Part shown: one piece after another, positions 251 to 5,205 of the stretch
Layout of the letters: every line of letters begins with the position of its first letter
Position numbering within the stretch: the stretch's first letter is position 1
Source of the DNA: Gammaproteobacteria bacterium
GTDB taxonomy: Bacteria > Pseudomonadota > Gammaproteobacteria > Arenicellales > Poriferihabitantaceae
Assembly (NCBI GenBank): GCA_009839585.1
Contig: VXPI01000328.1
Coordinates: forward strand, 1 to 5,332
Reading direction: 5' to 3'
DNA length: 5,332 bases
The notes under the pieces: generated by a model
Databases searched by the model: none
Seen by the model: only the letters and a program-made list of their open reading frames with translations
Told to the model about the DNA's origin: nothing
Position numbers and translations under genes: made by a program

Positions 251-967
251 ATGGTGTTCAAACTAGTCAAACCCAGCATGCAGACACTGAATCAAGTCGA
301 GTCCCTTGCGGGTCGCTATGGCCTGGTCGTTCGAGGTGCGTTTGCGGTTCAGGATGAAGACAACGTCCCGCCAATCCGTGATCAAGTCCCAACTCGAACA
401 TTGATGCTGTTTGGCAACGTCGGTTCATCAATCTGGAAGACGTTTTCCTCATCGGAAGAATATAGCGATGGCAGGCCTGATGCGCTGGACCGTTGGAGTC
501 AGCGCATCGGTGAAAAAATGGCCAATCAACTGGAAGGTCGGGCATTGTTCCCATTTGGTGGACCACCCTATCGTCCGTTTCTGAGGTGGGCCAAGAAAGC
601 CGAGTCGTTAATGAACTCTCGCCTAGGCATGTTGATTCATCCGAAATATGGACTCTGGCATGCCTACCGGTTTGCCATTGCATTGCCTTTTGATATTGAG
701 ACCGATTCCGTCAATCCGGCTGATATCTGCGCTGCATGTCCGGATCAGCCCTGCATTACGGCCTGTCCGGTCAATGCTTTCGAGGTAGAGATGGAGTTTG
801 ATGCCAGAGCCTGCTATACCCATCTCAGCGAACAGCAAAACGCCGCTTGCAGAACCGGTTGCCAGGCTCGACTTTCCTGTCCGTATGCCAGTGAGTTCAG
901 GTATCATCCCGATCAGGCTGGATTTCATATGGATGCTTATATCAAGACCATGTCCAGGCGGTTTTGA
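251..967 (+). CDS. Iron-sulfur protein with CblC (MMACHC)-like N-terminal half and QueG-like ferredoxin module
   Basis: Encodes 238 residues with no signal peptide or membrane segment, so cytoplasmic. Residues 160-173 carry C-x2-C-x4-C-x3-C-P (Cys160, 163, 168, 172). A second set follows: Cys188 in a RACYTHL context, then Cys200, 204 and 210-Pro. The eight cysteines and the 'ARxCxxxL' signature resemble the two-[4Fe-4S] module of epoxyqueuosine reductase QueG and reductive dehalogenases. The N-terminal half contains IHPKYGLWHAYR at 129-140 followed by a hydrophobic strand ending in LP. From memory this closely matches the human cobalamin chaperone MMACHC segment IHPRFGGWFAIR, and an earlier TRTLMLFGNVG strand also has an MMACHC counterpart. 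Inferred role: electron transfer to, or reductive handling of, a corrinoid. Start choice: ATG at 251 has a weak GAAG six bases upstream; ATG at 278 (229 aa) is an equally family-like alternative, and GTG at 95 is unlikely. An 82-nt gap leads to the ATPase gene on the same strand, probably one operon. Confidence 0.8.
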   Translation: MVFKLVKPSMQTLNQVESLAGRYGLVVRGAFAVQDEDNVPPIRDQVPTRTLMLFGNVGSSIWKTFSSSEEYSDGRPDALDRWSQRIGEKMANQLEGRALFPFGGPPYRPFLRWAKKAESLMNSRLGMLIHPKYGLWHAYRFAIALPFDIETDSVNPADICAACPDQPCITACPVNAFEVEMEFDARACYTHLSEQQNAACRTGCQARLSCPYASEFRYHPDQAGFHMDAYIKTMSRRF

Positions 968-1049: not shown

Positions 1050-3086
1050 ATGACCCGTCAACTCGGAATTGATACAGGGGGGACCTATACCGACGCAGTG
1101 ATTGTGGATACTGCAAAACAGATGATTGCCAAATGCAAGAGTCTGACCACCCCGTTTGATCTGACCGAAGGTATCGAACAGGCACTCGATGGACTGGGTG
1201 GAGTCAACCTTCAGGCTATTGGTCTGGTTGCGTTGTCGACTACCCTGTCGACCAACTCGGTAGTTGAAGGTCGAGGATCACCAGTCGGTGTTATTCTGGC
1301 AGGCTACAAGCCCCAACAGGTCAAACAAAGCGGACTGCAAGAAATCCTGGAAGACAGGATGATCTCGATCATCGATGGCGGGCATGGTGCGACCGGTGAA
1401 GAGCTGGTTCCTCTCGATGAAGCAAGACTGGAGAAGCTGATAGCAGGATATCAGGACAAGGTTTCCGCATTTGCCGTCTCATCAATCTTTTCCATTCGCA
1501 ACCCGGAACATGAAATAAGGATTCGGGAAAAGATCTATGCCATCTCGGGCAAACCCGTGGCATGCGGACATGAACTGTCCAACAGTCTCGGGGCACCGAG
1601 ACGGGCTCTCACCACAGCCATGAATGCCCGAATGCTGTTGTATATTCAGGAGTTGATCGATTCTGTCGAACGCATCCTCGGCAGAAAATCGATCCGTGCA
1701 CCGCTGATGATCGTCAAAGGCGACGGGTCCTTGGTTAACGCCCAGATCGCCCGCAAATATCCGGTCTCGACAGTGCTGTCAGGGCCTGCTGCAAGCGTGA
1801 TTGGCGCATGTGCGCTGAGCGGAAGAAAAGATGCCATCGTGGTTGACATGGGAGGCACCACAACCGATATCTGCGTAGTCTCGAAGGGTCGCCCTGATTT
1901 ATGTCATGATGGTGCGAGAATCGGTGACTGGCGGCCAATGGTTGAAGCCATCCGGGTAATTTCGATTGGACTCGGGGGTGACAGCGAGTTGCGATTCAAG
2001 GCCGGCATGGAAATTTCCGAGCGACGGATTGTGCCGATCAGCCTGTTAGCCTATCAATATCCCCAGGTCCTCGACAAACTGTATTCCCAGTATCGTACTG
2101 GGCCGACTCCCCGCAACAACAAGTTTGCCTTACAGCTTCAGATGAACAGGATTTTGATTGACAATCTTGATCCAGCGGAGAAAGAGGTTTGGGAATCACT
2201 TGGGCAAGGACCCGTTGAACTGGATTACTTGGCTAGCACTGATCGCATGCGCTTGCGGGCACTGGCCCGCCTTGAGCGCCTGGGGTTGGTGGTTTACAGC
2301 GGATTCACTCCTTCGGATGCCACCCACGTACTCGGCATGAGCCAGCACTGGAATCGCGAGGCTGCCATCATTGGTGCCAAAATCTGGGCTCGACAGATGC
2401 GACATCTTTATGGATTTGGCAACTGGGCAGATGATGATGCCGTCACTCCCAGTCAGCAGGTATTTGATACCGTCACCCAAAAGATCAGCCAGAAACTGAT
2501 TGAGGCCGGACTGCATCAACTGGAAAAATTGTCCGAAACCCAGACTGGTAAATTGACCAATGTCCTGGCAGACATCATATTGAACCCACAATTCCAGGGG
2601 TCCGGAAAACCACTGTTTGAACTTAGCTTCTCCCGCAACCATTCTGTGATTGCAGTCGGTGGTCCGGCTAAGGATTATTTTCCGGATGTTTCAAGGCGTC
2701 TGGGGGTGAGTCTTGAATTGCCAGAGCATGGCGAGGTCGCAAATGCGGTCGGTGCGGCATTGGGCGCAGTAGTACAAACTTCACAGATTAATGTGACTCA
2801 ACCCGAGTTCGGGGTGTTTTACCTGTTTCACAAGGGTCAGCCGATGCGTTTTTCCAGTTTGCAGGAGGCGGTGAATATTGCAGAGAGTATGGCCAGAGAG
2901 GAAGCGGAAAATCTGGCGATTGCTGCAGGCGCAGACGGGATTGAAACCAGCATTGAGTATGATGCCAATCACATCAAGCATGATTTGGACGGGGAGTTGT
3001 TCGTGAGCACAACGGTAACCGCAATTGCTACCGGGCACCCGAAAGCGGTCCAGATTGATGGTAGCTCTGTGAGACCGGGAAAATAA
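1050..3086 (+). CDS. Hydantoinase/oxoprolinase (HyuA)-family ASKHA ATPase, stand-alone
   Basis: Encodes 678 cytoplasmic residues. The N-terminal phosphate-binding loop GIDTGGTYTD lies at 6-15, STTLSTN at 63-69, the GHELSNSLG region from 173, SGPAAS from 244, and the second phosphate motif VDMGGTTTD at 265-273. A C-terminal adenosine-type motif, IAVGGPAKDYFPDV, starts at 534. Together these are the hydantoinase A N-terminal and hydantoinase/oxoprolinase domains of the actin/Hsp70-like ATPase superfamily. Characterised relatives (N-methylhydantoinase, 5-oxoprolinase, acetone and acetophenone carboxylases) use ATP to activate a carbonyl and need a HyuB-type partner. None is in the window, so a hydantoinase call is unsafe. 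Residues about 372-430 form a charged helical stretch ending in a GFTPSDATHVLG-type motif that looks winged-helix-like. The frame is open upstream to 798, but the RBS at 1040-1044 and the family N-terminus place the start at 1050. Cotranscribed neighbour: the iron-sulfur protein. Alternative role: ATP-driven reactivation of a corrinoid enzyme, by analogy with other ASKHA reactivases. The family is certain; the substrate is unknown. Confidence 0.88.
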   Translation: MTRQLGIDTGGTYTDAVIVDTAKQMIAKCKSLTTPFDLTEGIEQALDGLGGVNLQAIGLVALSTTLSTNSVVEGRGSPVGVILAGYKPQQVKQSGLQEILEDRMISIIDGGHGATGEELVPLDEARLEKLIAGYQDKVSAFAVSSIFSIRNPEHEIRIREKIYAISGKPVACGHELSNSLGAPRRALTTAMNARMLLYIQELIDSVERILGRKSIRAPLMIVKGDGSLVNAQIARKYPVSTVLSGPAASVIGACALSGRKDAIVVDMGGTTTDICVVSKGRPDLCHDGARIGDWRPMVEAIRVISIGLGGDSELRFKAGMEISERRIVPISLLAYQYPQVLDKLYSQYRTGPTPRNNKFALQLQMNRILIDNLDPAEKEVWESLGQGPVELDYLASTDRMRLRALARLERLGLVVYSGFTPSDATHVLGMSQHWNREAAIIGAKIWARQMRHLYGFGNWADDDAVTPSQQVFDTVTQKISQKLIEAGLHQLEKLSETQTGKLTNVLADIILNPQFQGSGKPLFELSFSRNHSVIAVGGPAKDYFPDVSRRLGVSLELPEHGEVANAVGAALGAVVQTSQINVTQPEFGVFYLFHKGQPMRFSSLQEAVNIAESMAREEAENLAIAAGADGIETSIEYDANHIKHDLDGELFVSTTVTAIATGHPKAVQIDGSSVRPGK

Positions 3087-3110
3087 AACAGCTAGATTCC
3101 CGCTGGTCTC
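3071..3110. terminator. Shared hairpin between convergent genes, candidate bidirectional terminator
   Basis: GAGACCGGGAA (3071-3081) pairs with TTCCC (3097-3101) and GGTCTC (3105-3110), giving 11 base pairs with a GCT bulge on the 3' arm and a 15-base loop. It spans the TAA of the ATPase gene (3084-3086) and touches the TGA of the flavoprotein gene (3109-3111). A stem at the meeting point of two transcripts suggests a shared 3' end. There is no strong T-run on either side, so efficiency as an intrinsic terminator is doubtful; 3'-end protection is the alternative. Confidence 0.45.
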
Positions 3111-5205
3111 AGATTTCTGTATATTCGCGCCGGTAGGGCACCTCATCAATATCCATCGATTCATTGAAGTCCCGGGCATACAAATGCCCCGCATATACTG
3201 CGGCTGCAATTGTGGATGGTGCAAGGCAATCGCCGATTCGCGTAACGGAACGCACGTCCCGCTCCTGCATGGCTTCGGGATCGTCGATCAGGTCAAAATA
3301 CAGTTGATGGTCTGGTTGCCTCGCCGTTACCAGAATCAGGTTATGAGTGAGCAGGCTTCGCTGTTCCTGACTGACCACATGCTGGATTATGGCTTCCTGT
3401 TCCTTCAGCGAGACGAGAGCGTGTTTTTCCATGAGCCATACGCCTAGGTCAAGCAGGCGTTTTTCGATAAAGGTCTGCTCAAGGGTATTTTTGGTCCAGG
3501 CCGAAACATTGGCTTCGGGCGTGACCAAGGTCACCTGGCATCCACTTGATGCCAGTTTTTCGGCAATCACGCCACCCATATAGTAATGATCATCGTCGAA
3601 AATCAACACGGAACCCGAAACATCCTGACCGTCCATAATCTGATCAGGCGTCAGTCGGGTCACACTACTATCGATTTCAATGGGGGTACGGTGTGTGCGG
3701 CCGATACCCCCCGCATGCCAGGTTGATCCGGTTGCACAGAGAATATGCCGGTACTTCAACTCATCGGCCAATTCAAGAACCTGTTGTTTATCCAGCCTGC
3801 TCTCAAAATACATCTCGACATTTTCCATACGCTGGATTTGTCCCAGTCGGTAATCAGCCACCCTCTTCCATTCGGAAAGTCCGGGCAGACGCGATTCCCG
3901 ATCGACCCGTCCGCCCGCATGTCGGGATGTCTCGGCAAGCACTACACGGTATCCCCGCTTGCCGAGGGACATTGCCGCTTCAAGCCCGGCAGGCCCTGCA
4001 CCAATCACCAGAATCGAATCTTCCGAGCTTTTGGGTGCAATCTGTTCGGGGTGCCAGTTTTTTCGGTACTCCTCGCCCATAGTCGGGTTCTGGGTACAGC
4101 GTATGGGTGACATGGTCATGTCGCCTGATACACAGATATTGCAACCGATACATTCGCGGATATCCTCAAGCCTGCCCTGACGGATTTTCTCCGGTAGAAA
4201 GGGATCGGCGATAGAAGGACGGGCTGCTCCAATCATGTCCAGCACCCCACGCCTGACTTGATCGACCATAGTCTCGGGGGATGTGAAACGGCCAACCCCA
4301 ACCACCGGCTTGCCGGTTACCTGTTTCACAAAAGCAATATACGATTCCTGATCGCCTTCGTTTGCGAAGCGGGAAGACTTTGAGTCATACATCCAGTCCG
4401 AAATATTGACATCCCAGATGTCCGGTAAATCGGCCAGCATCTCCACGACATCGCGGCCTTCATCCTCGCTTAGAGAATCCTGACCCAGAAACTCCCTGAC
4501 CGCGAGTCTGAGAGCAATTCCGCACCGATCACCAACCACATCACGCGTATCATCAAGGACCTCACGCAACAGGCGAGTCCGGTTTTCCAGAGAACCGCCA
4601 TACTCATCGGTTCGATTATTGAACTTGCGCGAGAGAAAATGCGACAACAGGGACAGACTGTGCGCTGCATACACATAGACGATATCAAAACCGATGTCTC
4701 TTGCGCGGATGGCAGCACGTCGATGCCAGCGTCGGTAGTTGGCGATATCTTCGCGCGTCATCTTGTACGCCTGCACGGGATCCAAACCGGTCACCGGAAT
4801 CATCTCGCCAACAGCCATCAGTGGCAGGCGACTGTGTCGATTGGTTGCCTCATGTCCATTGTGCGTGATTTCAATAGCCGCGAGTGAGTTGTGCTCATGA
4901 ACCGCATCCACCGTCAAGGCCAGTCGATGCATATCCTTCTCATCCCAGAGCCGCCCTTCAATATGTGGAGAGACATCGGTGCTTGGATGGATATCCACTT
5001 CCTGAGTGGACACGACCCCCCAGCCGCCTTCGGCCTTGACACCACGCATTGCGGCCTCGGCTTTGGGGAACACATGGCCCAGTCCATTGCAATGCGGAAC
5101 CTGATAAAACCGGTTGCGTGCCGTGACCGGGCCAATTTGAACCGGCTCGAACAATATGTCGTAACGGGAATCGCTTATTCCACGTGAATTACCGGAATCA
5201 GGCAT
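3109..5205 (-). CDS. Trimethylamine-dehydrogenase-family iron-sulfur flavoprotein (amine dehydrogenase)
   Basis: Encodes 698 residues (trimethylamine dehydrogenase, TMADH, has about 729). The N-terminal half is an Old Yellow Enzyme-type FMN barrel, starting YDILFEPVQIG. Cys39 in RFYQVPHC matches the TMADH cysteine that carries 6-S-cysteinyl FMN. Tyr179, His182 and Asp274 match its Tyr169/His172/Asp267. Cys352, 355, 358 and 370 bind one 4Fe-4S cluster. GAGPAG at 402-407 opens the C-terminal nucleotide-binding domains. The family oxidises amines to aldehyde plus a smaller amine or ammonia, passing electrons from FMN through 4Fe-4S to an electron-transfer flavoprotein. The substrate cage differs: TMADH Tyr60 and Trp355 correspond to Glu69 and Asp362, while Trp264 is kept as Trp271. 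As recalled, histamine dehydrogenase also has Asp in place of Trp355. Trimethylamine is therefore an unlikely substrate. Start: ATG 5205 has AGGAG ten bases upstream and overlaps the preceding stop; an in-frame ATG at 5256 would add 17 unfamily-like residues. Alternatives: dimethylamine dehydrogenase or an N-methyl amino acid demethylase. Confidence 0.9.
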   Translation of the reverse strand: MPDSGNSRGISDSRYDILFEPVQIGPVTARNRFYQVPHCNGLGHVFPKAEAAMRGVKAEGGWGVVSTQEVDIHPSTDVSPHIEGRLWDEKDMHRLALTVDAVHEHNSLAAIEITHNGHEATNRHSRLPLMAVGEMIPVTGLDPVQAYKMTREDIANYRRWHRRAAIRARDIGFDIVYVYAAHSLSLLSHFLSRKFNNRTDEYGGSLENRTRLLREVLDDTRDVVGDRCGIALRLAVREFLGQDSLSEDEGRDVVEMLADLPDIWDVNISDWMYDSKSSRFANEGDQESYIAFVKQVTGKPVVGVGRFTSPETMVDQVRRGVLDMIGAARPSIADPFLPEKIRQGRLEDIRECIGCNICVSGDMTMSPIRCTQNPTMGEEYRKNWHPEQIAPKSSEDSILVIGAGPAGLEAAMSLGKRGYRVVLAETSRHAGGRVDRESRLPGLSEWKRVADYRLGQIQRMENVEMYFESRLDKQQVLELADELKYRHILCATGSTWHAGGIGRTHRTPIEIDSSVTRLTPDQIMDGQDVSGSVLIFDDDHYYMGGVIAEKLASSGCQVTLVTPEANVSAWTKNTLEQTFIEKRLLDLGVWLMEKHALVSLKEQEAIIQHVVSQEQRSLLTHNLILVTARQPDHQLYFDLIDDPEAMQERDVRSVTRIGDCLAPSTIAAAVYAGHLYARDFNESMDIDEVPYRREYTEI

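Follow-up and report, generated by a model that had tools for sequence, protein, structure and literature searches.

A CblC-like ferredoxin with a probable role in B12 reduction or repair in bacteria that live aerobically on methylated amines

Among the nutrients of the ocean, glycine betaine is an important one. It is not settled by what means aerobic bacteria maintain a usable Co(I) state in air on the B12-dependent enzyme that demethylates it; super-reduced Co(I) would often be lost in air, so that additional repair would be needed by aerobes that possess many MttB enzymes. In the sections of the reports drawn on here, RamA already holds the reactivation role (PMC5764234, PMC12478193), and RamA and DUF1638 are named for keeping Co(I) usable in the MtgBCD system (PMC12478193); the words "ferredoxin" and "CblC" do not occur in the main text of the latter report. 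CblC (MMACHC), which processes B12 in humans, is without a ferredoxin domain (PMC4646009) and, according to excerpts of PMC10740964, uses glutathione or flavin, human R161 acting as the glutathione anchor. Bacteria are stated to be without CblC homologs in the excerpted text of PMC5070874. In class III cobalamin enzymes (QueG, RdhA) eight cysteines for two [4Fe-4S] clusters lie C-terminal to the B12 module, cob(II)alamin is base-off and pentacoordinate, and one Tyr is placed above the corrin (PMC4646009); further class III families were thought possible in the QueG structure paper (PMC4646009). No report of bacterial CblC-like or ferredoxin-fused homologs was found in the titles and abstract openings of the open-licence papers listed, those on class III cobalamin enzymes dating from 2016 onwards; apart from PMC5070874, the papers found for bacterial or CblC-like homologs deal with mice and animal models.

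The window, i.e., the whole stretch of DNA that was analysed, comprises 5332 bases. It is an entire contig, so that wider gene context is lost, and belongs to a gammaproteobacterial genome that is about 76% complete. Its features are (window positions):

251 to 967, forward strand: CblC-like ferredoxin, an open reading frame of 238 aa with 813 relatives and a predicted model of pLDDT 88.7
278 to 700, forward strand: N-terminal domain of predicted CblC/nitroreductase type, approximately residues 10-150
635 to 670, forward strand: IHPKYGLWHAYR, residues 129-140, in which R140 aligns with R161 of human MMACHC
728 to 766, forward strand: first cysteine group, C160-x2-C163-x4-C168-x3-C172-P, invariant in 70/70 aligned sequences
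812 to 880, forward strand: second cysteine group, C188-x11-C200-x3-C204-x5-C210-P, invariant in 70/70 and aligned with the QueG dicluster module
1050 to 3086, forward strand: hydantoinase/oxoprolinase-like ASKHA ATPase of 678 aa, a frequent partner (Pfam Hydant_A_N and Hydantoinase_A)
3109 to 5205, reverse strand: flavoprotein of the OYE/dienoyl-CoA-reductase type (Pfam Oxidored_FMN at 1.3e-65 and Pyr_redox_2)

The relatives of the window protein were taken at E ≤ 1e-3 among 944 candidates. Many aligned relatives begin at the second methionine, and the true start may therefore be 278 instead of 251. In the alignment of the window protein with 69 of 120 listed relatives, the eight cysteines (residues 160, 163, 168, 172 and 188, 200, 204, 210) as well as G134, W136, H137, R140, R207 and H226 are invariant in all 70 sequences, while H130 and P131 of IHPKYGLWHAYR are kept in at least 90%, short of invariance. 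A wider alignment of 12 sequences, which goes down to 25% identity with the window protein, retains the eight cysteines, G55, W62, P101, P109, G134, R140, R207 and H226 in 12/12; the IHP is lost in its distant members. The QueG-like eight-cysteine module, which had been claimed from the sequence alone, is confirmed by this invariance and by its alignment with QueG, and by its sequence it likely carries two [4Fe-4S] clusters placed C-terminal to a B12-type module as in class III cobalamin enzymes. None of the Pfam families was reached by the window protein, the best being Fer4_16 at E 0.33.

Profile-profile comparison matches the family to MMACHC over 27 columns of a local alignment (E 2.4e-5, probability 75.6%) and to QueG (E 3.6e-9, probability 96.1%), and these E-values together with the fold match argue for a likeness beyond chance. 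Global hhalign of the family profile against MMACHC gives E 0.27, the sure local match being confined to the 27 columns. The shared motif is IHPxxGxWxAxR including the corresponding arginine, and its human-type counterpart IHPRFGGWFAIR is present in a primate MMACHC by profile alignment; the sequence-only reading had named such a motif for human MMACHC. The fold matched best by the predicted model is that of MMACHC, with 181-199 residues covered, followed by QueG and then by the reductive dehalogenases; Foldseek gives moderate TM-scores against MMACHC, 0.52-0.57 for the six top chains, with a whole-chain rmsd of 7 to 8. On this model the window protein would have the nitroreductase-related B12-binding fold. 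The sequence-only reading had claimed a CblC/MMACHC-like N-terminal half and had pointed to profile and structure comparison with MMACHC and QueG; once this was run, both proteins were matched by sequence profiles and by predicted fold, and the claim is supported, as is its interpretation as a protein that probably binds or reduces a corrinoid. The Pfam model PF16690 (MMACHC) finds no match in the window protein at E ≤ 1, its curated cut-off not being reached, and gives weak matches in 12/70 family members (best E 0.019); across 398 phylum genomes it gave no match and the controls were equally silent, so that this search has no bearing on absence. As to the arginine pocket of CblC, R161 corresponds to the invariant R140, and R206 and R230 fall where the ferredoxin module stands here, in a region aligned without confidence. 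The presence of a ferredoxin in place of the CblC C-terminal region suggests that electrons would come from the clusters and not from a thiol or flavin. A comparison with a viral structure library yielded no match at E ≤ 0.001.

The family bridges MMACHC and QueG, which match each other directly at a profile E of 0.032 only. Identity with QueG is ruled out, the score to TIGR00276 being 27.7 bits against a cut-off of 200; the cysteine spacing differs as well, and QueG-length open reading frames in several of the genomes are located elsewhere and match weakly. The reductive dehalogenases PceA and NpRdhA are longer, and unlike them the CblC-like ferredoxin has methyl-transfer genes as neighbours. 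A pure ferredoxin is ruled out as a complete explanation, given the conservation of the N-terminal half and its predicted CblC fold, which supports the earlier statement that the protein is more than an electron carrier. RamA/RACo (PF14574), an ASKHA protein with a 2Fe-2S domain, often occurs in the same genomes and neighbourhoods and shares the proposed job of restoring Co(I); RACo_C_ter (PF14574) was found neither in the window protein (E ≤ 1) nor in the families listed for the 70 members.

The gene neighbourhoods link the family to corrinoid-dependent methyl transfer. On pSymB of S. meliloti the homolog (LZK74_26790), annotated simply as "ferredoxin", lies 107 bases downstream of a trimethylamine-methyltransferase-family gene, and the opposite strand carries genes for a cobalamin-binding protein, DUF1638, methylenetetrahydrofolate reductase, methyltetrahydrofolate cobalamin methyltransferase and an ASKHA protein, with betaine-homocysteine methyltransferase and glycine betaine transporter genes in the vicinity. 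The core gene order is the same in Paracoccus aminovorans and Shinella, and in all three the homolog stands directly downstream of the mtgB-type gene. These loci correspond to the gene set for demethylating glycine betaine aerobically (MtgBCD, RamA and DUF1638) as far as described in the consulted parts of PMC12478193 and PMC5764234, the single-gene names mtgB, mtgC and mtgD being assigned here by likeness. Another contig of the window's own genome (L161) carries genes like mtgB, RamA, mtgD, a virulence-factor-family protein, DUF1638 and mtgC. Among the best 80 of 579 loci, a survey which leans to near relatives, an MttB-type gene lies within seven open reading frames in 16/80 (Pfam-confirmed in 5/16). 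A corrinoid protein and a DUF1638 gene do so in 6/80 (L020, L027, L030, L057, L058, L070; Pfam-confirmed for the corrinoid protein in L020, L030 and L058 and for DUF1638 in L020), and RACo and a Pterin_bind gene are also nearby in L020, L057 and L070. At other loci of these 80, genes for sarcosine oxidase alpha and gamma, a dimethylglycine-dehydrogenase-like protein or SHMT adjoin. A hydantoinase-like ASKHA gene accompanies the CblC-like ferredoxin gene on the same strand in 29 of these best 80 of 579 loci and is immediately adjacent in 28. As a general substitute for RamA this neighbour is ruled out, since RACo is found in 35/40 searched genomes, the window's included, and both occur together in L020, L057 and L070. 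The OYE-type flavoprotein gene is convergent to the CblC-like ferredoxin and ASKHA genes and has no demonstrated membership in the unit.

Co-occurrence was followed in several genome samples. In the family f63 (101 genomes of 100 genera) the CblC-like ferredoxin is found in 62 genomes, MttB in 71 and RACo in 70, and MttB is present in 62/62 carriers versus 9/39 non-carriers (Fisher p 5e-18). In the family f67 (120 genomes) the corresponding figures are 93/94 and 20/26 (p 4e-4), and the median number of MttB matches is 4 in carriers versus 1 in MttB-positive non-carriers; such enrichment where MttB genes are numerous is consistent with a capacity role. The Fisher tests ignore shared ancestry; taking roughly one genome from each genus, as in f63, reduces this effect without removing it. 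In a phylum sample of 348 genomes, MttB occurs in 38/41 close members versus 4/306 others, the window's genome being left out of this count; the close members are cut at E ≤ 1.1e-45, three of the 41 are without MttB, and 15 divergent members (E 2e-19 to 3e-30) as well as 12 genomes with QueG-level matches only are left out of the 41. No MttB was found in the 15 divergent members of this sample, and counting them MttB occurs in 38/56. In the window's 40 nearest genomes MttB is present in 30/32 carriers and in 7/8 non-carriers, and these similar rates make the tie uninformative there. Linkage and co-inheritance with mttB/mtgB are seen in f63, in f67 and in the phylum sample. Next to the conserved sequence and the predicted fold with its ranking, a genetic tie to MttB-type corrinoid methyltransferases is observed, for two families in the Alphaproteobacteria and for several loci in the Gammaproteobacteria. 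As MttB occurs in the absence of the CblC-like ferredoxin in 9/71 MttB genomes of f63 and 20/113 of f67, the gene is not strictly needed.

These data are tentatively read, with a little less than even confidence, as a B12-servicing reductase that combines a CblC-type fold with an eight-cysteine ferredoxin module and would act alongside RamA and DUF1638 as part of the aerobic system of MtgBCD type. The substrate would be inactivated cobalamin, i.e., cob(II)alamin, or cobalamin with a wrong upper ligand, which would likely be bound base-off on the CblC-type face. Electrons would pass from the two putative [4Fe-4S] clusters of the ferredoxin module to the cobalt, and the reduced cobalamin would be handed back to the corrinoid protein. 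In some members of the family the neighbouring ASKHA ATPase may use ATP to drive conformational change or electron transfer, which is the weakest step of the scheme. Since RACo is usually present (61/62 f63 carriers), the CblC-like ferredoxin would most likely assist RACo and not replace it; given the existing reactivation role of RamA, it may also be redundant with RamA.

The same RACo count also suits a dedicated electron donor to the ASKHA activator RamA, in which the CblC-type pocket would be a docking surface or a relic without corrinoid, and so does the retention of the eight-cysteine module in the most distant aligned members. However, conservation extends to the CblC half, where both alignments keep G55, W62, P101, P109, G134 and R140, nine f63 genomes have RACo without the CblC-like ferredoxin, and two carriers near the window (G008 and G035, several of the 40 nearest genomes being incomplete) have neither RACo nor MttB, and a mere donor is judged unlikely. 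A class III enzyme with catalysis of its own, which like QueG and the dehalogenases would convert a small substrate at a corrinoid, e.g., by reductive demethylation or dealkylation feeding the methyl pool, would account for the domain order shared with QueG and RdhA and for the methylated-amine genes among the neighbours. Against this, the protein is short and its match to QueG ends before the C-terminal part of QueG, a domain which is missing here, and it adjoins MttB proteins of different subfamilies (289, 380 and >700 bits to PF06253), which points to an accessory and not to one substrate; we regard such an enzyme as quite unlikely. A general CblC-type decyanase or dealkylase scavenging imported B12, tied to MttB only through a high B12 need, is very unlikely, for although MMACHC is the best fold match, R140 equals the glutathione-anchoring R161 and carriers without MttB exist, 57/62 f63 carriers have a same-strand MttB no more than 4 kb upstream (≤400 bases in 42/62; distances between profile matches, for the approximately 100 best-scoring MttB matches among those listed, the other listed matches changing nothing) and no B12 uptake gene is annotated at the S. 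meliloti and P. aminovorans loci.

With the B12-servicing reductase as the preferred reading, the CblC-like ferredoxin is a conserved and testable third candidate, beside RamA and DUF1638, for the upkeep of Co(I). If it holds, relatives of CblC exist in bacteria, contrary to the statement in the excerpted text of PMC5070874, and the protein represents a further class III family of the kind foreseen in PMC4646009. A more far-reaching version is doubtful: here the family would be the third class III B12/iron-sulfur family and, among bacterial branches, the closest one to animal CblC. It would be a corrinoid reductase working without ATP, which takes inactivated cobalamin out of the shared corrinoid protein, reduces it via its own two clusters and returns it, so that MttB-type methyltransferases stay functional in oxygen; animal CblC would have this same fold, the ferredoxin having been lost.

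Several smaller observations accompany these results. In the window's family (G000-G023) MttB-type genes are strongly expanded, with 8 matches in the window's genome and 0 to 19 in the others. The divergent branch L128-L133 comes from genomes without detected MttB, L128 retaining the eight cysteines at 26% identity, and its job may differ from that of the close members. The ASKHA protein matches solved relatives in sequence only over approximately its first 320 residues, its model is similar to N-methylhydantoinase and to acetone carboxylase subunits, and a HyuB gene is absent from the window. At L003 an OYE-type flavoprotein gene of this kind is followed by a glutamine-synthetase-family gene, and these two may point to methylamine-type nitrogen use. 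The protein of 186-195 aa encoded directly downstream of the CblC-like ferredoxin in L022, L029, L033 and L046 gives no Pfam match at E ≤ 1e-4 for the L029 copy. In seven f67 loci (L121-L127) the gene stands between argB-like (amino acid kinase) and histidine phosphatase genes and not beside mttB, with yidC and GTPase genes adjoining (families tested in L121). In Pelagibius (L016, L018, L019, L021) a conserved row comprises a divergent MttB, a CxxCxxCC-type protein, the CblC-like ferredoxin and a class I glutamine amidotransferase.
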